DNA of 64,000 nt from Chitinivibrionales bacterium (lineage in GTDB: Bacteria; Fibrobacterota; Chitinivibrionia; Chitinivibrionales; FEN-1185): assembly GCA_035516255.1 (NCBI GenBank), contig DATJAL010000049.1:1-64000 (forward strand). The letters are read 5' to 3'. Below are positions 25,447-52,540 of this stretch, piece after piece. The notes under the pieces were generated by a model that was not told where the DNA came from, did not search any database, and was given only the letters and a program-made list of their open reading frames with translations. The position numbers and the translations under genes were made by a program. Each line of letters begins with the position of its first letter. The stretch's first letter is position 1.

Positions 25447-26349
25447 CTATCCGCGCCTTTTTTTCCTGTGCGGCTCTATGTGCATGATCACTTCCGTGCT
25501 GGGGAAGCGCCGTTTGATCTCTTCGGCAAGGCCGTGGTCCAGCTCGTGCGAGGTCTCCACCGACATGGCGGGATCCACCTGAATGTGGAATTCCACGAAA
25601 CGCTTGGCGCCGGACCTGCGGCTGCGGAACTTGTGCAGGCTGATCACCTTTGGGTATTTCGAGAAAACGATCGACTTGATTTCATCCTCCTCCTGCCGGG
25701 GCAGACTCGCGTCGAGAAGGTCGCGCGCCGATTCAAGGGTAAGGTTCCATGCGGCCTTGACAATAAGCACTGAAACGGCCATGGCGGCCATTGGGTCGAC
25801 CCAGGTGAGGTTCACGGAGGGGAACCATTTCCTGCCCGCCCACACGATGCAAAGCCCCAGCATCACGCCCGCTGAAGTATAGACGTCGGTGAGGCAGTGC
25901 AATGCGTCTGCCTTGAGCGCGACGGAATCGGTTGTGCGCGCGCCGCGGAGCAGCAGCAGCCCCACCACGGTGTTGACGGCAGCGGAAACGAACATGATGA
26001 CGACGCCCAGCCCGACGGTGTCCATAATGCCTGGTTTGATCAGCTTATGCACCGCCTCGTAAAGGATCCATCCCGCGGCCAGAAAAATTAAGATTGCCTG
26101 GATGAGCCCTGAAAGGCTTTCGAACTTGCCGTGGCCGAACGCGTGCCGCTCGTCCGCAGGCTCAGAAGCGCGCCTGACGCCCACGGTGGCCACGATCGCG
26201 GCAAAAACGTCCACGCCCGAATGCAGCGCTTCGGAGATCACCGAAATCGAGCCCATCACAAAGCCGACAATGAGCTTCAGCGCCACCAGCAGGACGTTGG
26301 ACCCCACGGATAAAAGGGCTATAAGGAATTTGTACCGTTCGGTCTGCAC
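25447..26349 (-). CDS. Cation diffusion facilitator (CDF) metal exporter under a NiCo riboswitch
   Basis: 300 residues from the GTG at 26349. This start follows GGAGG by 5 bases; the upstream in-frame ATG at 26388 lies inside the riboswitch terminator and cannot be used. Six membrane helices span about residues 7-205; the metal site motifs are 'SEALHSGVDVFAAIV' (HxxxD) in helix 2 and 'KADALHCLTDVYTSAGV' (D-H...D) in helix 5, and a cytoplasmic C-terminal domain with 'VEFHIQVDP' and 'HELDHGL' follows. The riboswitch strongly suggests Co2+/Ni2+ (possibly Fe2+) as the metal. The gene is followed 90 bases on by the Cys-rich protein and the copper efflux genes. Confidence 0.92.
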   Translation of the reverse strand: MQTERYKFLIALLSVGSNVLLVALKLIVGFVMGSISVISEALHSGVDVFAAIVATVGVRRASEPADERHAFGHGKFESLSGLIQAILIFLAAGWILYEAVHKLIKPGIMDTVGLGVVIMFVSAAVNTVVGLLLLRGARTTDSVALKADALHCLTDVYTSAGVMLGLCIVWAGRKWFPSVNLTWVDPMAAMAVSVLIVKAAWNLTLESARDLLDASLPRQEEDEIKSIVFSKYPKVISLHKFRSRRSGAKRFVEFHIQVDPAMSVETSHELDHGLAEEIKRRFPSTEVIMHIEPHRKKRRG

Positions 26350-26361
26350 CAAAACCTCCAA

Positions 26362-26405
26362 ACAAAAAGCCCCGCGGAACATGTGCATGTCCCACGGAGC
26401 TGGGG
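26362..26405 (-). terminator. Riboswitch-controlled intrinsic terminator (attenuator)
   Basis: On the minus strand CCGTGGGACATG pairs with CATGTTCCGCGG (12 bp with two G-U pairs) and an outer CCCC/GGGG, followed by TTTTTGTTTG. The 5' arm contains the conserved GTGGGACA of the NiCo aptamer, so aptamer and terminator are mutually exclusive: metal binding should permit read-through. Confidence 0.8.
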
Positions 26406-26466
26406 ATTCCGTTGCCGCTCGGGCCCGGCCACGCTGCCTTTGGCAGCTGCCTGATCATTCGCAATG
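26382..26466 (-). ncRNA. NiCo (czcD) riboswitch aptamer
   Basis: The minus-strand leader contains, in order, the conserved pieces of the NiCo class: CAGGCA, a P2 stem (GCTGCC/GGCAGC), GGCCGGGC, GCGGCAAC, a P4 stem (ACGGA/TCCGT), and GTGGGACA. All lie within about 85 bases and immediately upstream of a CDF transporter gene, the classical target. Recalled conserved sequence of the crystallised NiCo aptamer agrees in all four unpaired blocks. Ligand Co2+ or Ni2+ is the known one. Confidence 0.88.
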
Positions 26467-26496
26467 AATATAGAATGGTGAACCAGCGTGTGGCAA
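26467..26496 (-). promoter_or_regulatory. Probable promoter of the NiCo riboswitch-CDF transcript
   Basis: TTGCCA at 26496-26491 and TATATT at 26472-26467 on the minus strand, spacer 18 (17 to CTATAT). The predicted start falls just before the aptamer's first stem. Confidence 0.6.
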
Positions 26497-38275: not shown

Positions 38276-39085
38276 ATGAAAACAACATTCACCGGGCTCG
38301 TGTATCCGCTGCGGGTTATTGCCGCGTCCGTCGGCTATGTAAGTTATTTCCTCGCCATCCTCGTTTTCCTGTGCGCCGGGCTCCCGTTTTTCCTGCTGTT
38401 CGCGCTGCTGCCGAAGCTGATGCAAAGGCTCATGCGCGCCGCGCTCACGGCATACACGTTTTTTCTGACGCGCCTGTGGCTGCCGGCCCTGGGGCTCTAT
38501 GCCGTCGCCGAGATCTCGGGGCTGGACCGCGCGCTCCGCGGCGCCGTGCTGGTGGCCAACCACCGGGGCAGGCTCGACGCCCTGCTCCTGCTGTCGATGC
38601 TCCCGCGCACGGGCGTGGTGATAAAGGCGCATTACGCCCGCGAACCGCTGTATTACGTATTTGTCAAGTACCTCGATTTCGTGAGCATCGACCCGGACTC
38701 CCTGGGGTCGCTCGGCGCGGCGACGGCAAAATGCCGGGAAGTGCTGGCGAAGGGAACAAACCTCCTGGTGTTTCCCGAGGGCACGCGCGCGAAAACCGGA
38801 AGGCTCCTCGAATTCAGGACGTTTCCCTTCAGGGTCGCCATGGAAACGGGCGCTCCGGTGGTGCCGGTCATCATCCATTCCGACCTTCCTTTCATGGCGC
38901 GCCGCAGGGGAAGTATTTTTCCAAGGTACCGGTTCAGGTACACGATCAGGTTCCTGCAGGCCGAACGGCCCGGTCCCGGCGAGAGCGCGCCGGACTTTGC
39001 GGCGCGGGTGCGCGGCCTCATGGCCGGGCAGCTCGCAATGCTTGACAAAGGCACCTGCTGGGACATTGGGGCAAGCGGTACCTGA
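38276..39085 (+). CDS. PlsC-family 1-acylglycerol-3-phosphate O-acyltransferase-like protein
   Basis: 269 residues from ATG 38276. An N-terminal hydrophobic region (about 10-50) and a PlsC core: 'VLVANHRGRLDALLLLSMLP' is a variant of the NHxxxxD motif (catalytic His and Asp), 'VFPEGTRAKTGRLLEF' is the EGTR motif, and 'VPVIIH' the last block. It transfers acyl groups from acyl-ACP or acyl-CoA to lysophosphatidate or a related acceptor. It is tightly linked to rmlC and followed by a FabZ-like dehydratase and a flavoprotein-SCP2 gene, which may make it a partner in the lipid pathway of the opposing operon. Confidence 0.85.
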   Translation: MKTTFTGLVYPLRVIAASVGYVSYFLAILVFLCAGLPFFLLFALLPKLMQRLMRAALTAYTFFLTRLWLPALGLYAVAEISGLDRALRGAVLVANHRGRLDALLLLSMLPRTGVVIKAHYAREPLYYVFVKYLDFVSIDPDSLGSLGAATAKCREVLAKGTNLLVFPEGTRAKTGRLLEFRTFPFRVAMETGAPVVPVIIHSDLPFMARRRGSIFPRYRFRYTIRFLQAERPGPGESAPDFAARVRGLMAGQLAMLDKGTCWDIGASGT

Positions 39086-39125
39086 TCCGCTCCGTCACGA
39101 ATTATTCGTAAAAATGAAAACGCTC

Positions 39126-39220
39126 ACCGCAAAGGCGCAATGGTCGCAAAGGGAAAGAAAGATCAATACAGGATATTTTCCAATTCACATTTTTTTTTGC
39201 GTCCTTTGCGCCTTTGCGGT
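39126..39220. repeat. Inverted pair of a CCGCAAAGGCGCAA repeat
   Basis: ACCGCAAAGGCGCAATGGTCGCAAA at 39126-39150 faces its near-perfect reverse complement (TTTGCGTCCTTTGCGCCTTTGCGGT) at 39196-39220, with 45 bases between. This sequence type (TTTGCGxCTTTGCGGT) is a known dispersed motif in many bacterial genomes. Here it fills much of the gap between the acyltransferase and the FabZ-like gene. Confidence 0.75.
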
Positions 39221-39263
39221 GATTTTCTAAATAAATTGTGCGAATATAAAAGGACACCCTCTC

Positions 39264-39728
39264 ATGCAGCAGACGACCTTCGGCATGGAAGACATCCTGG
39301 CGATCCTTCCCCACCGGCCGCCGTTCCTTTTTGTCGACCGGGTGGTGCGGCTTGTCGTGAACAGGGAAATTCTCGCCGAGAGAGACATCCGCGACGACGA
39401 GCCGTTCTTTAAGGGGCATTTCCCGCACAAGCACATCATGCCTGGCGTGCTGGTGACCGATGCGCTGGCCCAAACAAGCGGCCTGCTGTGGGGACTCTCA
39501 AAAAAGGTCGGCGGCGAGTCGCCTGCCAAGGAACCCCGGATATTCTACCTCGCCCAAGCGAATATAAAGTTCGTCAATCCCGCGTTCCCGGGTGAAACGC
39601 TCGAGCTCCGTTCCCGGTGCGAGACGAGCTTCGGCGCGCTTTTCAGCTATGCGGTCGAGGCGTGCGTTGGAAAAAAAACAATCGCCAAGGGCACCCTCGC
39701 CCTTGCCATGATGGACGGCGCGCCATGA
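39264..39728 (+). CDS. FabZ-like 3-hydroxyacyl-ACP dehydratase with Asp in place of Glu
   Basis: 154 residues, a hot-dog fold. The catalytic His is in 'FFKGHFPHKHIMPGVLVTDALAQTSG'; the position of the catalytic Glu of FabZ (ExMAQ) is Asp here (TDALAQ), as in FabA. The opening 'DILAILPHRPPFLFVDRVV' is standard. It is distinct from the FabZ domain fused to LpxC at 61187-62569, so it is probably a specialised paralogue. It ends with an ATGA overlap to the flavoprotein-SCP2 gene. Confidence 0.88.
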   Translation: MQQTTFGMEDILAILPHRPPFLFVDRVVRLVVNREILAERDIRDDEPFFKGHFPHKHIMPGVLVTDALAQTSGLLWGLSKKVGGESPAKEPRIFYLAQANIKFVNPAFPGETLELRSRCETSFGALFSYAVEACVGKKTIAKGTLALAMMDGAP

Positions 39729-40810
39729 AGCTGCTCTTGCTGCGCGGAAACCCGAGAAAAAACGGCTTCACCCGCTACCTCACAGACCTATTTGTCAAGG
39801 GAGTCAGGGAGGCGGGCGGGCAGCTTGTCGACCGCGACCTGTCATCGCTTTCCATTAAAAACTGCACCGGGTGCTACTCCTGCTGGGTCACCTCGCCGGG
39901 GAAATGCATCATCAGCGACGACATGGGTTCCGTGCTGCAGGACTTCCTCGACGCCGACACCGTGGTTTTCGCGACCCCGCTCAACGCGTTCACGGTAAGC
40001 GGCCCCCTTAAAAACGTCATGGACAGGTTGCTGCCGCTCACGCAGCCGACCTTTGAGCAGTCGCCGCCCGGTTTGGTGCGCAACAGCCTGCGGTTCCCTG
40101 AAAAATGGCCGAAGAAATTCGCCGCGATCGTGGTGGGCGCGTTCAAGGGCGAGGAGAATTTCGCGGCGGTGCAAAGCACGTTTTCCCTGTTCGCCAACGC
40201 CATGAGCATGGAACCGGCCGGCGATCTCATACGGCCCGAATCGCACCTGCTGCGTTTCGCCCTTGCAAAGCCGCTCACGGTAAAGACCATAGAGACCGCA
40301 TTTGTCAAGGCAGGCTACGAACTCGCGACGGAGGGCAGGATCACGCCCGAAACGCGGCAAAAGGCCGCCACGCCCCTCGCACCCGATCTCGGATATTTCA
40401 AAAAATACTCCAACATCTACTGGGAGCACGCCGTTGCGCTGGGCGAGAAGTCGCACGACCTCGACCTTCTCACCAAAACAGTGATGGCGGACGTGCGCAT
40501 CCTGATGCAGGAAATGGCGCGCAGCATCGACCCTGCCGCCACCGCGCACCTAAAAACAACGCTGCAGTTCGAATTCACCGACAAGCCGTATTCGTTCATT
40601 CTGTCTGTTGACAAGGGGAAATGCACGTTTATTGAGGGAAAAACCGACAAGCCAGATTTGAAGGTGACCACCTCCACCGGCGTGTGGGCAAAGGTGTTCA
40701 TGCGGCAGATCAACGTCCGCGACGCGCTGATGAACAGGCAGATCGTGCTGGAGGGGGACAAGTTTATTTTTTCAAGGCTCGACAGGTATTTTCCGCCGCC
40801 GGTGATGTAA
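39725..40810 (+). CDS. NAD(P)H-dependent FMN reductase-like flavoprotein fused to SCP2 domain
   Basis: 361 residues from ATG 39725, overlapping the upstream stop (ATGA). Residues 1-190 have a flavodoxin-like fold: 'LLLLRGNPRKNGFTRYLTDLFVKG' and 'DRDLSSLSIKNCTGCYSCW' (a CxxCxxC cluster or disulfide as in iron-sulfur flavoproteins), and 'VVFATPLNAFTVSGPLKNVMDRL'. The C-terminal about 110 residues ('LQFEFTDKPYSFILSVDKGKCTFIEGKTDKPDLKVTTSTGVWAKVF') are an SCP2 sterol-carrier domain, which binds acyl chains or other lipids. The fusion suggests a reductase acting on a lipid or acyl substrate held by the SCP2 part. Encoded next to acyltransferase and dehydratase genes. Confidence 0.82.
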   Translation: MKLLLLRGNPRKNGFTRYLTDLFVKGVREAGGQLVDRDLSSLSIKNCTGCYSCWVTSPGKCIISDDMGSVLQDFLDADTVVFATPLNAFTVSGPLKNVMDRLLPLTQPTFEQSPPGLVRNSLRFPEKWPKKFAAIVVGAFKGEENFAAVQSTFSLFANAMSMEPAGDLIRPESHLLRFALAKPLTVKTIETAFVKAGYELATEGRITPETRQKAATPLAPDLGYFKKYSNIYWEHAVALGEKSHDLDLLTKTVMADVRILMQEMARSIDPAATAHLKTTLQFEFTDKPYSFILSVDKGKCTFIEGKTDKPDLKVTTSTGVWAKVFMRQINVRDALMNRQIVLEGDKFIFSRLDRYFPPPVM

Positions 40811-41202: not shown

Positions 41203-41524
41203 ACGCGAAGCACGTCTCCTCCTTGATGATATGATCGCGGCAATTGAAAAAATTAACCGGTATATTGCTGGATTAAAAATGGGGGAATTTCTAAAGGACG
41301 AAAAGACCTGCGATGCCGTCACCCGCAATCTTGAAATAATCGGAGAGGCCGCGCGCCAATGTCCCGAAGCGTTTAAAACCAAACATTCCGAAATCCCTTG
41401 GGCACAAATTACCGGGTTGCGCCATAGGATCGTTCACGATTACACCGGTGTCGATTTGGAATTGGTATGGCAGATCATCAATTCAGACATGAAGGAATTA
41501 TTAAACAACCTGCGCAGTTTATAA
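41195..41524 (+). CDS. hepT: HepT-type RNase toxin
   Basis: 109 residues, all helical. The HEPN ribonuclease motif R-x4-H appears as 'GLRHRIVHDY', with the tyrosine after His that is the AMPylation site in known MntA/HepT pairs. 'NLEIIGEAARQCPEAF' is the family signature. Overlaps the antitoxin gene by 8 bases and converges with the GIY-YIG-like gene, with a 6-base 3' overlap (41519-41524). Confidence 0.9.
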   Translation: MPKREARLLLDDMIAAIEKINRYIAGLKMGEFLKDEKTCDAVTRNLEIIGEAARQCPEAFKTKHSEIPWAQITGLRHRIVHDYTGVDLELVWQIINSDMKELLNNLRSL

Positions 41525-41884
41525 CCCTGTCCGCGAAATACGGTTGTACCCTTTCTCTCCAAACGGCTTCAGCTTGTCAAGCCACAGTTCCTCCAGCGTC
41601 TTCAAATCATCGTCGTAGTTGTAAAGCGGGTCCTCCTTCGGCTCCAGCCGGTCGATGATTTCGTATTTGAACGCGCCTTCACCGCATTTCACGAAATCCG
41701 ATTGGAGGTCGGGATTGGGAAAAGAACCTGTTTTCAACTGGAACATGATGCTGTTGAATTTGGTATTGAGGGTCTTGGATTTTCCGACAAGGATCTTTCC
41801 GTTCGCGGTGTTTGTCACCTGAAAAATTCCCATGGGCAAAAGGGTCTGCTTGTAATTGCGAATGAGCTCTTTTTTGTCAGTCAT
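41519..41884 (-). CDS. GIY-YIG-like nuclease-family protein, divergent
   Basis: 121 residues. The start 'MGIFQVTNTANGKILVGKSKTLN' is like the GIY-YIG core with GIF...ILVG in place of GIY...YIG, and 'SDFVKCGEGAFKYEIIDRL' and 'LEELWLDKLKPFGEKGYN' match the small bacterial family that keeps the fold. The Tyr pair needed for cleavage is replaced, so catalysis is doubtful. The gene is last in the minus-strand lipid operon (11 bases after fabD) although its role is probably unrelated. Confidence 0.75.
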   Translation of the reverse strand: MTDKKELIRNYKQTLLPMGIFQVTNTANGKILVGKSKTLNTKFNSIMFQLKTGSFPNPDLQSDFVKCGEGAFKYEIIDRLEPKEDPLYNYDDDLKTLEELWLDKLKPFGEKGYNRISRTGL

Positions 41885-41894
41885 TGTGTGAAAA

Positions 41895-42836
41895 TTATCT
41901 GCCGGGGACCAGTTCCCTGGCCGCCCGCTCCAGTCCGGTGAGATTGTTGATGTTGAAAACGGTCGTGCGCTTGGGAAACCCGTTCACCCGCACCAGGCCC
42001 GAAAGCACCCGCTGCGGCCCGATTTCCAGAAACACGTCCGCGTTTTTCGCAAGGAGCGTTTGCATGCTTGCGCGCCATAAAACGGGCCTCGTCAATTGCA
42101 GTGTGACAAGTTCCTTAATTTTTACCGGATCGCTTTCAAAAGCGCCCGTGCCGTTGAGCAGAAGCGGCACTGAAGGCGGTTTGAAGGTTATGGATTTCAC
42201 CCAGTCGGCGAACCGCTCCATTGCTTCTCGCATGTAGGGACTGTGCCACGGCCCTGAAACAAGCACTGTCTTGGTCTTGCCGACGCCGAGCTCCGAAAGC
42301 CGCCTCGAAAACGCCTGCATGGTCTCCAGGTCTCCCGACACCACGATCTGGTCCGGCGCATTGTCGTTTGCGAGAACGATTTTATCGGGAGCGTTCATGT
42401 CCGCGAGCAATTGCTCGACCGTTTCAAGCGGCGTGAACAGCACCGCCATCATGCCGCCGTTTGCGCGAGCCGCCGCCTCATCCATGAATCCGCCGCGCAT
42501 GGCCGCGATGGTCACGGCTTCCTGGTCCGAGACCACGCCGCTCGCGGCGAGCGAGGTGATTTCGCCGAGCGAATGGCCGAGCACCGCGTCGGGCGTTATG
42601 CCTTTTTCGCGCACATGACGCAGATAGCCGAGCGACACCGCCGCGAGCAGGGGCTGCAGAAACTGGGCCTTGCGCAGTTTTTTCTCGGGCCCGCGCAGGC
42701 AAAGTTTTTCAAGGTCCTCGTGGGTCAGGTCGCGTGCCAGCGAAACCAACGAGCGAAAACGGGCGTCCGCTTTGAAAAGGTCCTGCCCCATCCCGATTTC
42801 CTGCGAGCCCTGGCCGGGAAAAAGAAATACGATCAT
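41895..42836 (-). CDS. fabD: Malonyl-CoA:ACP transacylase
   Basis: 313 residues. 'MIVFLFPGQGSQEIGMG' and the nucleophile Ser89 in 'VLGHSLGEITSLAASG' and His in 'VSGPWHSPYMREAM' are as in FabD. It loads malonyl onto the ACP. It is the penultimate gene of the operon, 7 bases after fabG. Whether it serves the dedicated operon or general fatty acid synthesis cannot be said; no other FabD is in the window. Confidence 0.93.
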   Translation of the reverse strand: MIVFLFPGQGSQEIGMGQDLFKADARFRSLVSLARDLTHEDLEKLCLRGPEKKLRKAQFLQPLLAAVSLGYLRHVREKGITPDAVLGHSLGEITSLAASGVVSDQEAVTIAAMRGGFMDEAAARANGGMMAVLFTPLETVEQLLADMNAPDKIVLANDNAPDQIVVSGDLETMQAFSRRLSELGVGKTKTVLVSGPWHSPYMREAMERFADWVKSITFKPPSVPLLLNGTGAFESDPVKIKELVTLQLTRPVLWRASMQTLLAKNADVFLEIGPQRVLSGLVRVNGFPKRTTVFNINNLTGLERAARELVPGR

Positions 42837-42843
42837 ACTGCCC

Positions 42844-43578
42844 TTATGCTACCGTCGCGGTAAGGCCGCCGTCAACCACAAGCGACTGCCCGGTGATGTA
42901 GGAGGATTCGTCCGAGGAGAGGAATGCGACCGCGGCCGCGACCTCGGCGGGCGTGCCGAAGCGCTTGACCAGGATGCGGCCGAGGTTCTGCTGCTTGATC
43001 TGCCGCGGCATCTTCGCGGTCATGTCGGTTTCGATGAAGCCGGGCACCACGGCGTTCACGCGGATGCCGCGCGGGCCGAGCTCGGCCGCAAGCGACCGGG
43101 TGAAGGCCAGGAGCGCGCCCTTGCTCGCGCTGTAATTGGTCTGCCCGCCGATGCCCACCATGCCCGACACCGACGCGATGTTGACGATAACGCCCTTCTG
43201 CGCGTTCATCATGGGCCGCACTGCGGCCTTTACAAAACGCCACGCGCCGTTGAGGTTCGTGTCGAGCACCTTGTTCCATTCGTCAAACGGCATCATCATG
43301 AGGTACTGGTCCGACGTGATGCCCGCGTTGTTGACCAGGATGTCGATGCGGCCGTCGGCCTTGACGATGCCTTCGACGGCATTCCCGATCGCATCGCCGT
43401 CGGCCTGGGGACACAGGATCTTCTGCGCGCCGGTCTTCCGCGCCGTGTCCTGCGCGGCCTCCTCGTGGCGGTGATAGGTGAAATACACCTTCGCGTTCCG
43501 TTTGCGGAATTCCTCGACAACGGCCCTGCCGATGCCGCGGGACCCGCCGGTGACGAGGGCGATTTTATCGGAGAACAT
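42844..43578 (-). CDS. fabG: 3-oxoacyl-ACP reductase (FabG-type SDR)
   Basis: 244 residues from ATG 43578, with AAAGG 6 bases upstream. A short-chain dehydrogenase: '[19 protein letters not shown]' nucleotide-binding loop, '[15 protein letters not shown]', catalytic Ser/Tyr/Lys in '[24 protein letters not shown]', and FabG-like C-terminal '[12 protein letters not shown]'. It reduces the beta-keto group of the growing chain. Between DUF5946 gene and fabD. Confidence 0.92.
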
Positions 43579-43661
43579 GAGCGCCTTTATTGCTAAATGA
43601 TCATGATTGCGGACGGGGTATAAAATAGTTTTTGCAACCGGCAAAGGGCGGAACCGCGCAT

Positions 43662-44171
43662 TTATCCATTTAAAACAGTTTCAACCAATCTGTCAATTGT
43701 CGCATGATAGTTCACCCATGCATGATACACGCTTTCGGCCCAATCCTCCACCAGCTTTTTATGCTCTTCGAACGTGGCCGCCTTCACCACACCAACAACG
43801 GTTATTGCTCCCCTGTTTTCCGGCGGATCAAGCCACTCAAACGTTCCCTTGTTTTTCCTTATGAGCGCGTCCATCAACCGGGTCACCCTTTTGTACTCCA
43901 TTTTTTTCACGAGCACCATGTGCAGCGCCGCGAGATGGACGTTCACCGACTGCGTGGTCTGCGGCGTCTGGTCGCCCGGATGCTGTACGGCATAGGCATC
44001 CAACGTGAGGCGATGAAAGGACGGGTATTTGTAAATTGAAAATTCCTTTTCCAATATTTCGCCGTAGAGTTTCCAGCAGCCTGCCGAGGATGAATGGGGA
44101 TACCGGAAGGTCGGGCCATCAATGTCGGGCACGAGGGCGCGGCAGCCGATGCAATGAATCAAGGGTTGCAT
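43662..44171 (-). CDS. DUF5946 family protein
   Basis: 169 residues. The opening '[34 protein letters not shown]' and '[35 protein letters not shown]' are those of the DUF5946 family (CxGC zinc-like pair and 'DAYAVQHPG'). These proteins have no known activity. It lies 12 bases after the acyltransferase-like gene in the operon. Confidence 0.8.
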
Positions 44172-44183
44172 TTTTTATGTTAA

Positions 44184-44738
44184 CTATTGCAGGTTTGGCA
44201 GCTTCGCCAGATCCATCTCAAGCAAATACACCTTCTCGTTTTTATATGACAAATCGCCGATCACGTTCAATCCTATCATCTGATACGGCCGCACCCGCCT
44301 TTCCGAGCACGTGCCGTAGACTTTTCTGACGTTTCTGGCGACCAGTTTTTCCAGAAAATATTTCGTGAACAGTTTCAGCATGGGCGTGCCGCCCATGGGA
44401 TCGAGCAGGGAGAACATCTGGATTATTTCAGCGACAGCCTTGTTTGATTTGTCAACCGCAAAACCCTCCATTTCCAGTTGCAAAGGGTTCTTATGGTCGA
44501 AATTCACCGCGCACCCTGCCACGATCCGCTCGCCCAGCCGCGCCACATATAGTTCCTGGGTTTCGTAAGGAATCTTCGTGACGATCCTTTTTGACTTGTG
44601 ATCGAAGTCCCAAAGGTGGTCCAGGTTTTTCATATGACCGAATGCCCGGTAGAACGCCCGCTCGTAGGAACGGAGCTCGGCTTCGTTCGTTTTGTCAACC
44701 ATTGAAAAAACAAAATTGCCTGTTTTCTCCAAACTCAT
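44184..44738 (-). CDS. Acyltransferase-like protein of unknown family
   Basis: 184 residues without membrane segments. The strand-turn 'ELYVARLGERIVAGCAVNFDHKNPLQLEMEGFAVDKSNKAV' followed by a helical part with 'LVARNVRKVYGTCSERRVRPYQMIGLNVIGD' resembles the GNAT / N-acyl-transferase fold, in which a strand pair precedes a pantetheine loop and a substrate loop, but the classical Q/RxxGxG/A loop is not clear. The gene follows the GcvT-like gene after 170 bases and precedes DUF5946 gene. It may transfer the finished acyl chain. The start ATG is very close to GAGG, so a downstream start cannot be excluded. Confidence 0.4.
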   Translation of the reverse strand: MSLEKTGNFVFSMVDKTNEAELRSYERAFYRAFGHMKNLDHLWDFDHKSKRIVTKIPYETQELYVARLGERIVAGCAVNFDHKNPLQLEMEGFAVDKSNKAVAEIIQMFSLLDPMGGTPMLKLFTKYFLEKLVARNVRKVYGTCSERRVRPYQMIGLNVIGDLSYKNEKVYLLEMDLAKLPNLQ

Positions 44739-44908
44739 CCTCGCAATTTATTAAATGAGAAAGCGTGATGACATGCCTGAAATTCTTTGCAAGCGCAGCG
44801 GCTGGATAAAATATGATTTTTGCGTAATTATTTCAGAAGGGACATGATGACCAAATCCCTTTCCGCTTTGTCATCAGCACTAGCAGTTAAAACCGATCTG
44901 GTTTTTGT

Positions 44909-46018
44909 CTACAGCTCGTCAAGCTTCACCGAAAGGCTCTTGGGCATGATGGGCGGCATTGAAATGGTTTTTATCACGGGGCCTTTTTCAGACCCGAGGC
45001 TGAACTGAAGGCCCGCATAGGCGATGTCAACGGGAAACAGCGCCAGGCCCACATGGGCGTTTAAAACATGGGAAAAACAAGACGCCGTTACTTCAGCCAC
45101 CTTTGCGGCCCCGTTGAAAATGGGCGTCCCCTTTTTAAGTTCCTTTGCGCCGTGTTCGGTGCAGATGCCGATGATCTTGTTCTTGGTGCCGGCCTCCCTG
45201 CGCTTGCAGATCGCGTCGCGGCCGCTCCACTTTTCCTTGCTGAAATCGATCATCCACTGCAGGCCGAGCGCAAGCGGATCGCGCACCGCCGCGCCTTCGG
45301 CGAACACGTTGAAGAACCGGCCTTCGAGCCGCAGATCGTTGTGAATGTTAGCGCCGCAAAGGCCGCCGTTGTTTTTTATTGCAGCGGCGAGGCACGCCTC
45401 AAACAGTTTTACCGCGGAAGTTTTCGGCACCATGAGGTAATAGCCGAACTCCGAGGTTTTTCCCGCCCTGAAAAGCGAAACGCTTTCGCCCTCGAAGTCG
45501 TAACGCTCCACCGAAAGATACGGAAGCCCCAGCACGTCGGCGCCGAACAGCTCCTTGACCACGGCCCAGGCCTTGTAACCGTCTATGCTGAGCAGGCCGT
45601 GCGTGGCGCGGCAATCGGTGATGCCCGCGCCGGCCGCGCCGTGCTCCTGAAGCATCGCGTCGAAAGCGGCGTCGTCGATGATGCTTTCTGCCAGCAGGAT
45701 GAATTCCTCGTCGTTGTTGGCGACATAACAGTCGGCAACGATGTTGCCGGCGTTGTCGGCAATGAAGGTGTGGAGCATGCGGCCGAACCGCACCTTGGCA
45801 ACGTTGCCGGCGCACAGCGTGTCGAGAAAGTCAAGTCCCTTGTCCTCGGGAAAACGGAAGCGCTGCATATACGAGATATCGCCGATCCCCACCGCGTCGC
45901 GGACGAGCCGATATTCGGTCTTCGGGTCGGAAACCTTTGAAACTATTTCCGCGCCGAAGCGCTCGGAAAAAGCGGCCTTGTGTTTTGCGAAGCCGTCGTG
46001 AAAAAGGGATGCCCTCAT
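44909..46018 (-). CDS. GcvT/aminomethyltransferase-like protein in lipid operon
   Basis: 369 residues. It matches the GcvT/YgfZ/dimethylglycine-oxidase fold: 'YRLVRDAVGIGDISYMQRFRFPEDKGLDFLDTLCAGNVAKVRFGRMLHTFIADNAGNIVADCYV' is the N-terminal folate-binding region ('GDISYM...R..G.D'), and 'FGYYLMVPKTSAVKLFEACL' and the C-terminal beta-barrel 'ICTEHGAKELKKGTPIFNG' fit. These proteins bind tetrahydrofolate and take a one-carbon unit. No gcvH, gcvP or gcvL is nearby, so a role in glycine cleavage is unlikely; the operon position suggests a modification of the acyl product. Its start overlaps the ACP stop by 4 bases (ATGA). Confidence 0.8.
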   Translation of the reverse strand: MRASLFHDGFAKHKAAFSERFGAEIVSKVSDPKTEYRLVRDAVGIGDISYMQRFRFPEDKGLDFLDTLCAGNVAKVRFGRMLHTFIADNAGNIVADCYVANNDEEFILLAESIIDDAAFDAMLQEHGAAGAGITDCRATHGLLSIDGYKAWAVVKELFGADVLGLPYLSVERYDFEGESVSLFRAGKTSEFGYYLMVPKTSAVKLFEACLAAAIKNNGGLCGANIHNDLRLEGRFFNVFAEGAAVRDPLALGLQWMIDFSKEKWSGRDAICKRREAGTKNKIIGICTEHGAKELKKGTPIFNGAAKVAEVTASCFSHVLNAHVGLALFPVDIAYAGLQFSLGSEKGPVIKTISMPPIMPKSLSVKLDEL

Positions 46019-46311
46019 GATTGCGCCCCTTTGGCCGCCTGCCGTTCGAGCACGTAATCAACCACGGTGTTGATGGAGCGCAAAACAGAAATGTTCTGGT
46101 CCGGTATTTTTATGCCGAAGGAATTTTCAATGCATAGCACGATTTCCAGCGCGTCGAGCGAATCGAGGCCCAGGCCCGCGCCGAGCAGCGCCACGTCCTC
46201 GTGAAGGTCTTCGGGCGCATAGGGCAGGTTGAGGCGGCGGATGAGTTCTTTTTTAAAGGTATCTATCACAGCGCGGCGTTTATCAATCGCCGCCTGCATC
46301 GTCGTGGTCAT
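46015..46311 (-). CDS. Acyl carrier protein
   Basis: 98 residues. The 4'-phosphopantetheine attachment site is the Ser of 'GLGLDSLDALEIVLCIEN', in an otherwise standard four-helix ACP, about 18 residues longer at the N-terminus than FabF-type ACPs. It lies 12 bases after the second ketosynthase pair and overlaps the GcvT-like gene. It is the carrier for the dedicated synthase. Confidence 0.93.
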   Translation of the reverse strand: MTTTMQAAIDKRRAVIDTFKKELIRRLNLPYAPEDLHEDVALLGAGLGLDSLDALEIVLCIENSFGIKIPDQNISVLRSINTVVDYVLERQAAKGAQS

Positions 46312-46323
46312 ACGCGGTTTCTT

Positions 46324-48648
46324 TCACCCGTTTTTTTGTATCACGGCGGCGCAATTCACCCCGTGCGATGAGCTGAAAACTACGAGAATATACTTGTTGT
46401 CATGCCCATTTCTCAAGGGCGAACCCAAAAGAGCGTGGGCGAGCGAAAACAGCGGGGCCGACGCTTCAGCGAACCCCAGCGCGGGTGAAACATCGATGAT
46501 GCTATCGAACTTTTTTCCAACAACTTTCCCGACAGCCGCCGTTTCCCGTGGATTGGCGGCATTGCAGCAAACCGCGCCGATGCCCGAGGCGGCGAGCCCT
46601 GCTTTGTCAAGGGCGCTTTTTATTGTGTCATCAAGCCGCGCGGTGTCAGCGTCGGGCTTCATGCAATCGCCCGTCTCGGTCGAATACTCCACCGAACACA
46701 GCTTTCCCAATATTTTTGCGCCCCGGCCCTGTGCGTGCGAGGCTGTCTCGAGCATGATTGCGCAGGCGCCCTCGCCCCATGACAAAGCGCCGGACGACAG
46801 AAGGCCTGCCATGCGCAAATCGGTGACGATCCTTTCCGAAAGTTCGTCGACCGACAGGCTCACCAGCGCCTTTGCGTGGCCGCACCGTAACGCGGCCATT
46901 GAAAAACCGAGCCCCATGAGCCCTGCGCCCGGGCCGAAACTGATGGTGGTGTTGTGCCCCGTGAGACGGAGCGCCTTGCAGATGTTTCCGGCAACCGAAT
47001 TCGGGACGATATAGGGAAACGCCGCCACCTGGTCGATGCGGAATTTTTTCTTGAGCAGCGAGGTGATGTGCTCGGATTCGGCCCACGAAGGCCCTGCCGA
47101 AAGATGGAGAAACAGGCCCACCCCGCCGCGTCCGGCAAGCTTGTCGGGACTGCCGGCATGTTTCAGCGCCAGGCGCGCCGCCGCGGTGGCATACAGGCTG
47201 GACTTGTCCATGTTCCGCACATCTATGCGTTTGTCAACCGAGGCCATGGCAAAGGCAGGGACCATGCCGAGCCGCACCTGCGGCGCGCCCGAATACGCAT
47301 CGGCGCCGAGCGCGTTTTTTTTTGAAGCCGCAGCCTCAATGAGCGGCGCATGGCCCAGTCCGGCTGCGGAAACGATACCGATGCCGGTGATCACCACCGG
47401 CTCGTCCGAACCATTTTCCGGAGGAGAATATGCCGGATCAAAACGCGGATTCACCACGATGCTGGCATTGTTGCCGCCGAAGGCAAAGTTATTCTTCAAC
47501 ATCGGCCCGCTGCGCCCGACACGGCGGCCCGCCTCCGGGACATAATCGAGCGTGCAGCCGTCCCTTCGCTGCGAAAAATTCGCCGTGGACGGGTAATACC
47601 CTTTGGCAAGGGCCATGATGCCGGCAGCGGCCTCGAGCGAGCCCGCTGCGCCGAGGCAGTGTCCGATGATTGACTTGGTAGAGCTCACCGGAATGGCCGC
47701 AGCGCGCTCGCCGAACACCTTGCGGATCGCCTTGGTCTCGGCCTTGTCGTTTGCCTCGGTGCCGGTGCCGTGCGCATTGATGTAGGCTATTGACGAAGGA
47801 GAAATACCCGCGTCGTTGAGCGCGCGCTCCATGGAAAGCGCCTGGCCCGCGCCCGAAGGATCAGGCGCGGTGCAGTGAAAGGCGTCGTTCGAAAGGCCGA
47901 ACCCCATCACTTCGCCCAACACCGCGGCCTTCCGTCCCTGGGCATGCGCCAGGTTTTCGAGCACGAAGAAACCGGCGCCCTCGCCCAGGTTGAGTCCCAC
48001 GGGTTTTGAAAACGGCGCGCAGGTGCCTTCGCAGGTGGCCTTGAGGCCGTCGAACCCCGCGAGCGTGGTCTCGCTGAACGTGTCGCTGCCGCCCGCGAGC
48101 GCCGCGTCGATGATGCCGAGCCGTATGAGGTCGGCGGCGAAACCGATCGCGGCGGTACTCGCCGAGCAGGCCGTGACCACGGTCGCGCTCGGCCCGGCAA
48201 TGCCGAAAACATGGGCCAGCGACTTTGCGCCGCAGTAGTACCGGAGGCTGAAAAGTTCCTCTTTGGAAAGCGAGAGATCGCCCGAGAGGATGCGGCCATA
48301 ATGCCGCTCGATGCTCTGCATGGGACCGCTGCAGGTGGCGAACACAAGACCCATTCTCCGCGAAAGCGCGGACGGCGCAATGCCTGCCCGTGAAAGCGCT
48401 TCCTTTGCGGCGGCCGCGGCAAAATGCACGAACCGGTCAAGCCGATGCACGCACGGGTCGTCAACAAGCCCGCGGATATCGAATTCCCGGATGATGCCCG
48501 CGTGGCTTGCCCTGAAATGTGAGAGATGGGGCCTTCCGATGGCCGAAAACGACGGCGTCCCCGCCAGTACCGCCTCTGCAAAAGCATTGCAGTCGGCGCC
48601 GGCGCTGCACACGGCGCCCATTCCGGTGATGACGACGCGCTGCCTCAC
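46324..48648 (-). CDS. Fused ketosynthase - cysteine-less ketosynthase (KS-CLF type)
   Basis: 774 residues from a GTG at 48648 that overlaps the previous stop (GTGA). Residues 1-402 are a complete FabF-type ketosynthase: nucleophile Cys161 in 'VVTACSASTAAIG', His293 in 'NAHGTGTEAND' and His330 in 'STKSIIGHCLG', and 'FGGNNASI' at the end. Residues about 417-774 have the same fold but no Cys: 'TISFGPGAGLMGLGF' stands where the TACSS loop should be, and the HGTGT block is replaced by 'CCNAANPRE'. This is the arrangement of a chain-length factor (KS-beta) in type II PKS, here fused in one chain. It probably acts with the ACP encoded 12 bases on. Confidence 0.9.
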   Translation of the reverse strand: MRQRVVITGMGAVCSAGADCNAFAEAVLAGTPSFSAIGRPHLSHFRASHAGIIREFDIRGLVDDPCVHRLDRFVHFAAAAAKEALSRAGIAPSALSRRMGLVFATCSGPMQSIERHYGRILSGDLSLSKEELFSLRYYCGAKSLAHVFGIAGPSATVVTACSASTAAIGFAADLIRLGIIDAALAGGSDTFSETTLAGFDGLKATCEGTCAPFSKPVGLNLGEGAGFFVLENLAHAQGRKAAVLGEVMGFGLSNDAFHCTAPDPSGAGQALSMERALNDAGISPSSIAYINAHGTGTEANDKAETKAIRKVFGERAAAIPVSSTKSIIGHCLGAAGSLEAAAGIMALAKGYYPSTANFSQRRDGCTLDYVPEAGRRVGRSGPMLKNNFAFGGNNASIVVNPRFDPAYSPPENGSDEPVVITGIGIVSAAGLGHAPLIEAAASKKNALGADAYSGAPQVRLGMVPAFAMASVDKRIDVRNMDKSSLYATAAARLALKHAGSPDKLAGRGGVGLFLHLSAGPSWAESEHITSLLKKKFRIDQVAAFPYIVPNSVAGNICKALRLTGHNTTISFGPGAGLMGLGFSMAALRCGHAKALVSLSVDELSERIVTDLRMAGLLSSGALSWGEGACAIMLETASHAQGRGAKILGKLCSVEYSTETGDCMKPDADTARLDDTIKSALDKAGLAASGIGAVCCNAANPRETAAVGKVVGKKFDSIIDVSPALGFAEASAPLFSLAHALLGSPLRNGHDNKYILVVFSSSHGVNCAAVIQKNG

Positions 48649-51600
48649 GATACAAAGCTTCCGGTTTTGAAAACGACGGTGAAATTATAACCGAGGTCGG
48701 TGCTTGCCAGCGCCAGCACGTGCTGTGGCACCTGCCCGAGTCTTCTGTTGTCAAGATCGGCGATCCCCGTTTTCTGGGGCCACAGCCCATCGCCGTTGCG
48801 CAGGCTTTCAAGCGAGGCCGCGGCCGTCACAAGAATGGACGCGGTCTCGATGTATCCCGTGTTGAAGCTCGTTGCCGCGAGCGGGACCGACGCGGCGTTG
48901 CGTCCGAGAACGTCGAGCACCTTTTTGTCTTGCGCGTTGCCCTGCGGCGCCCACACGGCGAGGCCGATGTCGTTCCAGGCAAGTCCGGCGCGCGAAAGCG
49001 CCGTTGCGCAGGCGTGTTCGAGCCCCGCCGGTTCCATGCTCTGGCCGGAAAATTCCTTCCCGTCAATGCTCATGCCGTACGCCAGCACCTCGGCCAGGAC
49101 CGTCGCGCCGCGCTCCCGTGCCGCATCAAGCGTTTCGAGCACGAGGGTGGCCGCGCCCTCCGCGATCACCTTACGCTTTGGTTCCGAAATGTCAAGGTGA
49201 TACGCCGACTCGGCCTCACCCTGTTTGAGGAAGCCGATGAGGTCGTAATTATAAAAGCTCTGGTAATACACCTCGTCGGCAGCGGAAGCGAACACCGCCT
49301 TTGCGCGCTTTTCCCGCAGGGCGTTGAATGCCCAAGCCACGCTCGCGAGCCCCGCGTGCGGCCCGGGCGCAAGCGTCATGTTGACTCCCTTGAGGCATAA
49401 TGCATTGGAGACCCAGCCAGCGGTGGAGTTTGCCGTGATGTTGGAAAAACAGGCGATGTCGGGCTGATAATTGTCCGATTTGAAAACGCTGTTCATGTGG
49501 TCTGATTCGGGCGGGCCGTTGCACACACCCATCACGATGCCCACGTCGGCCGCGTTTTTCTGGCCCACGCGCAGGCCCGCGTGGTCGAGCGCGAGCTTCG
49601 ACGCTGCGGTGGCATAGGAGCTCAACAGGTTCATTTGCGCAAAGTCAAGCCTGCGGTCAACGTCCTGCGCGGTAAACGGCGGCACGAGCCCTGCCAGTTT
49701 CGACGCCGATGTCGTGTGCCCGAGCCTGCCGGCAGGCCCGATGCCCACCGCGCCGCGCCGCAGCGCATCAAGCGTTCTTGTGATGCCGAGTCCCAGCGAG
49801 GTGACCGTGCCGAGGCCGGTGATTACCACGCGGGAAAGCTCGCGCCTGCGCGGCGGCAGGGGAAAGTCCCATTTGGCAACGCACACCGCCGCGTTGTTGC
49901 CGCCGAACGCGTAATTCGCGGAAAGAAAGGCATTGTATTCCTTGTCGCGCGCGTTGTTGGGAACATAGTCGAGCGCGCAGCCGGGCCGCGGCTCCGAGAA
50001 ATTGAGCGTGGGCGGAATGAATCCATTGTTCATGGCGAGCAGGTTGCAGGTGGCCTCCAGCATGCCGGTAGTGCCCATGCAATGGCCGAAAAATGACTTT
50101 GTTGACGTGACCGGAATCGCGGCCGTGCCGCAGAACTTGGCGATGCCCTTTGATTCGGCGCGGTCGTTCGCCTCGGTGCCGGTGCCGTGCGCGTTGATGC
50201 AGCCGATGTCGTCCCGCTTGACGCCCGCGTCATTGAGCGCGTTCACAAGCGTTTTATACACGCCGTCGCCCCGAGGGTCGGGCGAGGTAGGATGGTAGGC
50301 GTCGGAGGTCAACGCGTGGCCGGCGATTTTTCCGTAAATGCGGATGTGGCGCAACAGCGCCTGCTCCATGTCTTCGAGCACCCAGAACACCGAGGCCTCG
50401 CCTATGTTAAGGCCTGCCGGCAGGGAAAACGGCGCGGTGCGGCCGGTCGACACCGCCTTGAGGCCGTTGAACCCGCTCACGTTGGCGACGCAGAGCGTGT
50501 CCGATCCGCCCACGATCACCGTGGAATACAGCCCGAGATTGATAAGCGACGCGGCCAGACCCAGCGCGCCGGTCGTTGACGAACAGGCAGTGGTGACCAG
50601 CCAGGGCTCGCCGCCGGTGCCGAGCGCGCGCGACAGCGCCTTGCCGAACCCGTAATACTGCGCCTGAAGGTTCATCTTCTCGTCAAAAATCTTGTCGCCC
50701 TTTCCATGCAGCCATTTATACTCCTCCTCGGCGGACAGCAGGCCGCCGTTGCACGTGCCGAGTACGAGCGCGATGTCGCGCCGCGCGGCGCGCGGCAGGC
50801 ATTCGATCTTCGCGTCCGCCATGGCCGCGCGGCCCGCGGCGATGCCGAAATGCAGGTATTTGTCTCCGTATTCCCTAATTTCCTCTTCGTCAAGAACCTT
50901 GCCCGCATCGAACCCCTTTATCTCGCCGCCGAGGTCGGTGCGGAAATGGCGCGCGTCGAACAGGGTGATGGGCGCAAGCCCGTGCCTCCCCTCGCGCAGC
51001 GCCGCCGTGATGTCCGCGCAGCTGTTGCCGATGGGACTCAAGGCGCCGATGCCCGTGACCGCGGCCTGGCCCCTCACGCCCCGGCGCTCGAGCGGCTTGC
51101 CCACGGCGCGTCGGCCGTTTTTCCATGTGGCCGGCTCAAGGCTTGCGGCATGAGAATCCTTCTGGAGCCGGTAGAAGTTGTTCCACAGGCCGATGAATTC
51201 CCTGTACAGCTCGTCGCGCGTCATGTTGAGCGGCTCGAACACCACGTGCGCGCCGTTGTAATGCGACCAGTTTTTGTCAACGATGCGGTTCTGGCGCTCG
51301 AGGCGATCCCAGTGCACCGAGCCGGGATACGGGGTGAATAGGAAAAATTCAGACGTGTGGATGCCGGCCTTGTCGAACAGCTCCACCACACGGTCGCCGA
51401 TGCCCTTCTCGTCCCAGTCGCGTCCAACGGCGCACGACCCGAAAAACCTGATGTCGTGGTCGCTGAGCTTCTTGACAAGATCAAACAGCATCCGCCGTTC
51501 CCTGGCCCCGCCGGCAAGCGCGCGGATCGAGATCGGGTCAACGTTGAGCGTGCAGTAGAAATTCTTGACGCCCGCGGCCGCCATGAGGGAAAGGAGTTTT

Positions 51601-52391
51601 TCGTCGGTGTTGAGCGCCATGGTGGAGGAGACGAAATATTTCTTCCCCAGCGGGATGAGCGCGTTGAGCAGACTCTGCGCGTATTCGGTCATTTTGCGCT
51701 GGGTGAAGAAAAGCGTGTCGTCGGCGAGATACACGTTCTCGTATTTGAGCCCGCGGATCTCCTCCACCACCTTGTCAATGGGCCTGAACCGAATCCTGCC
51801 GCCCATGTGCGCGGGTATGGCGCACATCGCGCAGTTGTACGTGCACCCGCGCGTGAGCTGCACAAGGTCCTCGTCCCAGTCGTAATAGTCTTTTTTGTAA
51901 AAAAGGTCGCGCCGCGTAATTTTCATGTCGGCCAGATTGAACGAGCAGCCGCCCTTGTAAATCCTTTTCAAGGCGCCGGCTTTGAGATCGTTCAGTATGA
52001 CGGGCCACGTGGGCTCGCCCTCGCCGGTGTTCACCGCATCGGCGTGCTTGAGGCATTCCTCCGCCATGAACGACGGGAAAAATCCTCCCATGATCACCTT
52101 AGCGCCCGCCGCCCTGAACCCGTCCCCTATTTCAAACGCGCGTTGCGCCTGCGGCGTGAAGCAGTTGATCGCGACAAGGTCGGTTTTCGCGGAAAAATCC
52201 ACCGGGTCGCCCGCGTTGTCGTCTATGAGCTCGACCTCGAATTCCGGCGGCGTCAATGACGCGAGGATGGGGATGCCCAGCGACGGCGGCGTGGTGAAAT
52301 CGCCGAGAAAATATTCGACCAGCCCCTTGTCCAATTCGGGGTTGTTGAGGAGGAACTTTTCGAAGCGGGGATAAATAAAGGTTATTTTCAC
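48645..52391 (-). CDS. B12-binding radical SAM domain fused to ketosynthase and cysteine-less ketosynthase
   Basis: 1248 residues from GTG 52391 (AAGG 10 bases upstream; a TTG ten codons earlier has no site). Residues 1-130 resemble the cobalamin-binding Rossmann fold ('PPSLGIPILASLTPP', 'VAINCFTPQAQRAFEIGDGFRAAGAKVIMGGFFPSFM', 'VNTGEGEPTWP') but without a clear DxHxxG. Residues about 180-400 are a radical SAM barrel with Cys183/187/190 in 'TRGCTYNCAMC'. A linker (400-440) leads to a full ketosynthase: Cys603 in 'VTTACSSTTGALG', His735 in 'INAHGTGTEAND', His770 in 'STKSFFGHCMG'. Residues about 854-1248 are a second ketosynthase fold with 'MTLAPGPHAGLAS' instead of the Cys loop. First gene of the operon. 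An assembly of this order is not known to me. Confidence 0.85.
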   Translation of the reverse strand: MKITFIYPRFEKFLLNNPELDKGLVEYFLGDFTTPPSLGIPILASLTPPEFEVELIDDNAGDPVDFSAKTDLVAINCFTPQAQRAFEIGDGFRAAGAKVIMGGFFPSFMAEECLKHADAVNTGEGEPTWPVILNDLKAGALKRIYKGGCSFNLADMKITRRDLFYKKDYYDWDEDLVQLTRGCTYNCAMCAIPAHMGGRIRFRPIDKVVEEIRGLKYENVYLADDTLFFTQRKMTEYAQSLLNALIPLGKKYFVSSTMALNTDEKLLSLMAAAGVKNFYCTLNVDPISIRALAGGARERRMLFDLVKKLSDHDIRFFGSCAVGRDWDEKGIGDRVVELFDKAGIHTSEFFLFTPYPGSVHWDRLERQNRIVDKNWSHYNGAHVVFEPLNMTRDELYREFIGLWNNFYRLQKDSHAASLEPATWKNGRRAVGKPLERRGVRGQAAVTGIGALSPIGNSCADITAALREGRHGLAPITLFDARHFRTDLGGEIKGFDAGKVLDEEEIREYGDKYLHFGIAAGRAAMADAKIECLPRAARRDIALVLGTCNGGLLSAEEEYKWLHGKGDKIFDEKMNLQAQYYGFGKALSRALGTGGEPWLVTTACSSTTGALGLAASLINLGLYSTVIVGGSDTLCVANVSGFNGLKAVSTGRTAPFSLPAGLNIGEASVFWVLEDMEQALLRHIRIYGKIAGHALTSDAYHPTSPDPRGDGVYKTLVNALNDAGVKRDDIGCINAHGTGTEANDRAESKGIAKFCGTAAIPVTSTKSFFGHCMGTTGMLEATCNLLAMNNGFIPPTLNFSEPRPGCALDYVPNNARDKEYNAFLSANYAFGGNNAAVCVAKWDFPLPPRRRELSRVVITGLGTVTSLGLGITRTLDALRRGAVGIGPAGRLGHTTSASKLAGLVPPFTAQDVDRRLDFAQMNLLSSYATAASKLALDHAGLRVGQKNAADVGIVMGVCNGPPESDHMNSVFKSDNYQPDIACFSNITANSTAGWVSNALCLKGVNMTLAPGPHAGLASVAWAFNALREKRAKAVFASAADEVYYQSFYNYDLIGFLKQGEAESAYHLDISEPKRKVIAEGAATLVLETLDAARERGATVLAEVLAYGMSIDGKEFSGQSMEPAGLEHACATALSRAGLAWNDIGLAVWAPQGNAQDKKVLDVLGRNAASVPLAATSFNTGYIETASILVTAAASLESLRNGDGLWPQKTGIADLDNRRLGQVPQHVLALASTDLGYNFTVVFKTGSFVS

Positions 52392-52540
52392 GTTTTTTCG
52401 GCCTTGGAAAATGCGGCGCAATGGTTATTACTGAGCGGTGATAAAAATAACCCATTGCGAGGGGAATTTTAAAGCATTTCCGAAGGTATTAAGACGTCAT
52501 TTAAAAACAGCGAGATCTGGATTCGCATGTTTTCGCGCCA

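Follow-up and report, generated by a model that had tools for sequence, protein, structure and literature searches.

Type II assembly lines that combine a ketosynthase and a chain-length factor (KS-CLF) with a ketoreductase and a dehydratase, and that have no enoyl reductase, give unsaturated chains. In Kuenenia stuttgartiensis and Desulfotalea psychrophila, radical S-adenosylmethionine (SAM) enzymes are encoded together with KS paralogues and type II fatty-acid synthesis genes (Rattray 2009, PMC2649909), and the role of radical SAM enzymes in the biosynthesis of ladderane-type lipids has been a long-standing open question (PMC2649909, PMC9821293, PMC13142503). Cobalamin radical SAM enzymes carry out methylations, ring formations and rearrangements (PMC13142503). 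Here we describe a locus in a 64,000-nucleotide stretch of a Chitinivibrionales genome (Fibrobacterota; contig DATJAL010000049.1, positions 1 to 64,000; hereafter the window) that is built around a 1248-residue protein in which a B12-binding and a radical SAM domain are fused to a KS and a CLF. No published description of such a fusion, or of the GcvT-like protein that accompanies it, was found in the open-access literature, nor was a characterised cluster matching the locus, and a type II KS-CLF system that has a cobalamin-type radical SAM domain built into it is apparently undescribed.

The locus shares with the aryl polyene clusters (E. coli ApeA-R) the KS-CLF logic, a ketoreductase, a dehydratase, an acyl carrier protein (ACP), an ApeK-like thioesterase and an ApeD-like acyltransferase. 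For the radical SAM and GcvT components, however, the E. coli cluster has no annotated equivalent, an ammonia lyase is not universal here, and likeness in the LolA/MMPL and ammonia lyase genes is limited to some relatives. A KS with an inactive CLF, a ketoreductase and a dehydratase are presumably also shared with the highly reducing type II polyketide synthases of the ishigamide Iga11-Iga12 type, though, unlike what we take to be the arrangement in those systems, the KS-CLF pairs of the window are encoded as fusions, one of them bearing a radical SAM domain. Among the structure matches was 6kxd, titled 'Ketosynthase', which we take to be the ishigamide KS. The locus differs from the Kuenenia and Desulfotalea sets in that the radical SAM domain is fused to KS-CLF, CrtI is lacking and a GcvT-like gene is constant; the terms 'glycine cleavage' and 'aminomethyltransferase' are absent from the text of PMC2649909. 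Biosynthetic gene clusters classed by antiSMASH as 'ladderane', of unknown function, have been reported from Fibrobacterota, Verrucomicrobiota and Omnitrophota (PMC9902471). Several phyla are thus shared, and clusters related to this one may have been picked up by software before, but the portions of that source drawn on here describe neither a fused radical SAM-KS-CLF protein nor a GcvT partner.

The fusion gene (P0001; 48645..52391, on the minus strand, as are all genes below unless stated) was taken to begin with a GTG codon at 52391, within a mechanical open reading frame (ORF) of 48645-52421, because most of the relatives in the alignment start exactly there, giving 1248 residues. The B12-binding domain (residues 46-139; 52005..52286) matches Pfam PF02310 with 29.6-31.7 bits, the whole protein scoring 29.6 bits, just under the cut-off of 32.1; the match is found at E<1e-3 in all 17 of the family's radical SAM domains that were scanned. 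The radical SAM core (residues 188-328; 51438..51860) matches PF04055 above its cut-off and carries the CxxxCxxC motif as C193, C197 and C200, so that both features of a cobalamin-dependent radical SAM enzyme are present, the B12 match being near the Pfam cut-off. KS1 (49872..51062) has intact catalytic residues C613, H745, K775 and H780, whereas in CLF1 (48648..49835), which has a KS-like fold, all of the catalytic residues checked are replaced. The same pairing of an intact KS2 with an inactive CLF2 is found in a second fused protein of 774 residues (46324..48648), whose gene overlaps the fusion gene by four bases. In an alignment to E. coli FabF, KS1 and KS2 retain all five of Cys164, His304, Lys336, His341 and Phe401 (numbering counts the Met), while in CLF1 and CLF2 each of the five is replaced (C to P, H to A/N, K to S/A, H to Y/F and F to D/S). 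The CxxxCxxC motif and the Cys/His/His of KS1 are invariant throughout the alignment of the fusion family. With a discrete ACP whose phosphopantetheine serine lies in a DSL site (46015..46311), the locus has the intact KS, the inactive CLF and the carrier protein of a type II synthase.

Among the 61 genomes surrounding that of the window, 17, the window's included, have the fusion; 16 are full-length (54-79% identity, or the window itself) and the remaining one ends at a contig end. A scan of a GTDB-based collection with the radical SAM domain turned up 36 loci, spread over Fibrobacterota, Verrucomicrobiota (among them Opitutales), Kiritimatiellota, Lentisphaerota and Omnitrophota, and additionally one metagenome-assembled genome (MAG) labelled Deltaproteobacteria, in which the contig stops within the radical SAM domain. 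After duplicate loci were dropped, a single open frame of about 1250 residues running from the radical SAM domain into the KS was present in 37 genomes, 17 of them from Fibrobacterota and the others from the Verrucomicrobiota, Kiritimatiellota, Lentisphaerota and Omnitrophota, some of the frames being truncated by contig ends. No unfused family member at 50% identity or above was seen among the loci examined, and an assembly join of two separate genes, a concern raised in an earlier sequence-only reading of the window, is rejected by the recurrence of this frame. The 37 fused radical SAM domains make up one side of a single branch of the tree (SH-aLRT 81, quick search), with which one fusion event may be compatible. 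A branch with a support of 100 sets KS1 apart from KS2 and other KSs, and a second group (support 99), made up of KS2 (15 rows), likewise spans phyla. As a sample of 289 Verrucomicrobiota genomes gave one match, the centre genome itself, the family is rare in that phylum. The recurrence of the fusion and its gene order in several phyla is more than chance, and bears out the earlier proposal that the fused protein is the centre of an assembly line.

Repeated around the fusion are genes for ACP, the GcvT-like protein and FabG, mostly also with a 4HBT thioesterase, which in the relatives sits between GcvT and FabG, with FabD and with KS-CLF2, the second KS-CLF being present in a subset of relatives. 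The order ACP-GcvT-(4HBT)-FabG-(FabD) is preserved although the sub-operon has moved across the fusion gene in L083, L088 and L090. FabZ, LPLAT and FMN_red-SCP2 genes recur on the opposite strand or nearby, and several relatives additionally encode an MMPL exporter. In the window the ACP gene is followed, with a four-base overlap, by that of the GcvT-like protein (44909..46018), beside which it is also kept in relatives, and farther on by those of the ketoreductase FabG (42844..43644, likely start about 43578) and the malonyl-CoA:ACP transacylase FabD (41895..42836). Convergent with these, on the plus strand, are an LPLAT acyltransferase (38276..39085; 30% identical across 118 residues to ApeD from the aryl polyene cluster in E. 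coli), a FabZ-like 3-hydroxyacyl-ACP dehydratase (39264..39728) and an NADPH-dependent FMN reductase fused to an SCP2 lipid-carrier domain (39725..40810). The nine minus-strand genes that the sequence-only reading had listed lie where it placed them, and the stop-start overlaps it noted at 48645-48648 and 46015-46018 are borne out by the ORF coordinates. Its radical SAM-KS-KS-like fusion of 1248 residues agrees with the Pfam domains and the FabF alignment, its CxxxCxxC, KS Cys/His/His and ACP Ser motifs are confirmed, and its second KS pair, ACP, GcvT-like protein, DUF5946, FabG and FabD are consistent with matches to PP-binding, GCV_T, DUF5946, SDR and Acyl_transf_1. The extent of the operon has to be redrawn: the genes for an acyltransferase-like protein (P0005), DUF5946 and a GIY-YIG-like protein are accessory, and the conserved plus-strand genes at 38276-40810 had been missed. 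Of the neighbours whose conservation it had proposed to check, ACP and the GcvT-like gene recur and P0005 does not.

The GcvT-like protein has a folate-enzyme fold, its model (pLDDT 94.4) matching T-proteins with TM scores of 0.86-0.88. In the E. coli structure 3a8k (D97N) the mutated position is residue 98 when the full sequence is counted, and its counterpart in the window protein is D96; this catalytic Asp is conserved in at least 90% of the GcvT-like family, with Glu in two Opitutales, and E190, R230 and W255 are likewise kept. Fold and catalytic Asp place the protein in the superfamily of GcvT, dimethylglycine oxidase, DmdA and LigM, with which it also shares part of the folate pocket. 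It was rejected as a true glycine cleavage T-protein (115 bits against a cut-off of 235.85 for the NCBIfam gcvT equivalog). The setting also differs, the partners here being ACP and KS-CLF, with no GcvH or GcvP in the window locus. Matches above 500 bits are confined to 15 of 168 Fibrobacterota genomes, all with the fusion, the next match scoring 159 bits; the protein is thus found in 15 of the 17 fusion genomes and in none of the other 151. In the two fusion genomes that lack the gene (G007 and G039) the cluster is interrupted by a contig end, and in G031, G015 and G009 the gene is located on another contig.

On balance we lean towards reading the locus as a type II KS-CLF line that works anaerobically and on its own, with an unsaturated and probably polyene-like product, either a lipid or a lipid-linked polyketide, whose chain the radical SAM domain and its GcvT-like partner would modify on the ACP. 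As judged from the gene set, malonyl units would be condensed, reduced and dehydrated on the ACP, and the chain would be unsaturated because KS/CLF, ACP, FabG, usually FabD and a nearby FabZ are encoded and no enoyl reductase is seen at the locus. Because the fusion is invariant, the cobalamin-type radical SAM domain would be expected to act in cis on the chain while KS-CLF or the ACP holds it, the candidate outcomes being a C-C bond, a ring, a methyl branch or an oxidation; we infer radical chemistry on the acyl chain, a case that the invariant fusion strengthens. True GcvT works with the carrier GcvH. The GcvT-like protein would work with the ACP, presumably moving a one-carbon unit between folate and chain, since the two strictly co-occur and their genes overlap; the one-carbon step, if any, is one that we infer. 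Release would be by the 4HBT thioesterase, or in the window possibly by a GNAT N-acyltransferase, and the LPLAT acyltransferase would then attach the product to lipid. That the pathway stands alone follows from G168 (Opitutales) and G170 (Omnitrophota), which have the fusion, no full-length sister radical SAM protein and no detected ammonia lyase.

Several observations weigh against this reading. Cobalamin binding is predicted from a domain match near its cut-off, and the radical SAM domain falls under every NCBIfam cut-off, has no characterised relative near enough to fix the reaction and finds its best PDB match with an E of 1.7e-5 across 44 residues. No enoyl reductase was seen at the window locus, no genome-wide search for one having been made. 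On contigs L033, L027, L076 and L092 there is no GcvT-like gene beside the fusion, although for L033 and L027, both Fibrobacterota, a different contig of that genome carries it, and all but one of the genomes named are MAGs. A more far-reaching version would have the cobalamin radical SAM domain carry out C-C bond-forming chemistry in cis during KS-CLF extension, either ring or ladder formation or the insertion of a methylene or methyl group with a folate carbon supplied via the GcvT-like protein. This would be a new kind of assembly line and a Rosetta Stone for the stand-alone radical SAM proteins of ladderane type; we regard it as possible, though on the doubtful side.

The genome of the window also has a separate ladderane-type cluster (G000:C44:95446-104019, L038) with genes for a radical SAM protein, KS, CLF, ACP, a CrtI-like protein and a further radical SAM protein, and the locus could be a branch of Kuenenia/Desulfotalea-type metabolism, the two clusters cooperating on one ladderane-like or polyunsaturated lipid. 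Both radical SAM proteins of this cluster share 38% identity with the fused domain along almost their whole length; the cluster resembles the Kuenenia and Desulfotalea sets (PMC2649909) in gene content and in its weak matches to TIGR04072 (39-55 bits against 360), and in relatives such clusters are fuller, also including FabG, FabZ and a lipid-A-type acyltransferase. More broadly, the fused domain is 37-43% identical over the full length to stand-alone radical SAM proteins, several of them in KS-CLF-ACP-CrtI clusters, and such a protein is encoded in 16 of the 17 Fibrobacterota fusion genomes, as compared with 7 of the 23 remaining genomes of the order (Fisher p 6e-5, kinship ignored) and 7 of the 151 others in the phylum. 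This branch nevertheless seems unlikely. There is no CrtI or phytoene-desaturase-like gene at the window locus, the fused domain scores 49 bits against a cut-off of 360 for TIGR04072, the rSAM_ladder_B12 equivalog, and KS1 and KS2 branch apart from the ladderane-type KSs in the tree. Four non-Fibrobacterota fusion genomes have no full-length sister radical SAM protein (next best 243 bits or less), and the second cluster is therefore not required by the fusion pathway. In three genomes (L072, L077 and L087, corresponding to loci L034, L035 and L032) the operon lies directly behind a block of ammonia lyase, LolA, MMPL, KS and FabG genes in the same orientation, which could point instead to an anaerobic variant of aryl polyene synthesis in which a polyene is grown from an aromatic starter supplied by the ammonia lyase. 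In comparison with the E. coli O157 cluster, the block of L035 has an ApeO-like KS (35%), an ApeQ-like ketoreductase (54%), an ApeM-like exporter and an ApeL-like LolA. The 4HBT protein of relatives is ApeK-like (28%), the LPLAT and FabZ of the window are weakly ApeD-like and ApeI-like, and ammonia lyase genes are present in eight of eight Fibrobacterota tested, one of them elsewhere in the genome of the window, and in two of the four fusion genomes tested outside that phylum. However, KS1, KS2 and FabG are nearer to FabF and FabG than to ApeO, ApeR and ApeQ, no AMP-ligase was seen at the window locus, and an ammonia lyase, absent there, is adjacent in those three relatives only. An aryl starter is not general, as no ammonia lyase was detected in G168 and G170, and we hold this variant, too, to be improbable. 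The sequence-only reading had regarded aryl polyene and ladderane hallmarks as absent, which is correct for the window operon but leaves out the C44 cluster of the same genome and the ammonia lyase block adjoining the operon in these relatives.

It might also be that the chain is untouched, the radical SAM domain modifying the ACP or another protein and the GcvT-like protein serving as a YgfZ/IBA57-type factor that keeps its cluster intact. YgfZ belongs to the same superfamily, and both YgfZ and IBA57 were among the fold matches. The KGCYxGQE motif of YgfZ is absent from the alignment of the GcvT-like family, though, and the protein is nearer to true GcvT in sequence and fold and keeps the catalytic Asp, so that this explanation is disfavoured and appears quite unlikely. 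It would seem very unlikely indeed that this is an ordinary fatty-acid operon in which the fusion is accidental and functionally meaningless. While KS1, KS2, FabG and FabD are like those of fatty-acid synthesis in sequence, the CLF partners are inactive, the fusion is preserved across the whole set of genomes, the co-occurrence with the GcvT-like protein is strict and several further KS loci are present elsewhere in the genome.

Three genes within the operon of the window are local extras. P0005 (44184..44738), called acyltransferase-like in the sequence-only reading, has no match in Pfam; its model (pLDDT 88.9) is closest to the acyl-homoserine-lactone synthases MesI, LasI and BjaI and to other GNATs, with FeeM among the matches, and it is better described as a GNAT/AHL-synthase-like N-acyltransferase. 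Its candidacy as a conserved part of the operon was rejected, homologues in the order being located on other contigs. A same-genus relative has a 4HBT gene at the position of P0005 and the neighbouring DUF5946 gene (43662..44171), and this pair (43662-44738) is apparently a replacement in the release step. The GIY-YIG/homing-endonuclease-like protein (41519..41884) is common to the same-genus relative only, and a PADLOC defence scan gave nothing but a homing-endonuclease match for it. Beside the FabD gene of the conserved operon in L080 (17638-19398, plus strand), a GNAT/FeeM-like domain is fused to a class I/II aminotransferase, which may hint at an amino-acid-linked product.

Other arrangements were noted around the fusion and its relatives. 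In a Verrucomicrobiota MAG (L066:4986-6221, plus strand) a tryptophan-halogenase-like flavoprotein gene lies between FMN_red-SCP2 and the fusion gene. At L022:13438-14829 and several other Fibrobacterota loci a gene named by sequence as leucyl-aminopeptidase-like is found divergently upstream of the fusion, to which it is probably unrelated. A CrtI-like domain and a radical SAM domain belonging to this subfamily form a 932-residue fusion inside a ladderane-type cluster (L046:11483-14281, plus strand), and in G009, G015 and G031 the radical SAM domain lies within open frames of similar size. A third radical SAM protein in the genome of the window (G000:C40:51075-54219, L043), 30% identical and very divergent on the tree, is encoded beside two KS-like genes. 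Promoter and terminator scans gave nothing clearly above chance. Elsewhere in the window a NiCo riboswitch over the Rfam gathering score (26385-26467, minus strand) is located at the start of ORF 25447-26388 (minus strand).

With a domain related to the ladderane-type radical SAM proteins covalently tied to a KS-CLF, radical action on an ACP- or KS-bound chain becomes directly testable, the test system consisting of the fused protein with ACP, FabG, FabD, a FabZ and the GcvT-like partner. If the GcvT-like protein is truly a constant partner of the KS-CLF, this would be a new role for the folate-enzyme fold. The gene set as a whole points to an undescribed anaerobic lipid, the chain of which would be modified while still on the assembly line.

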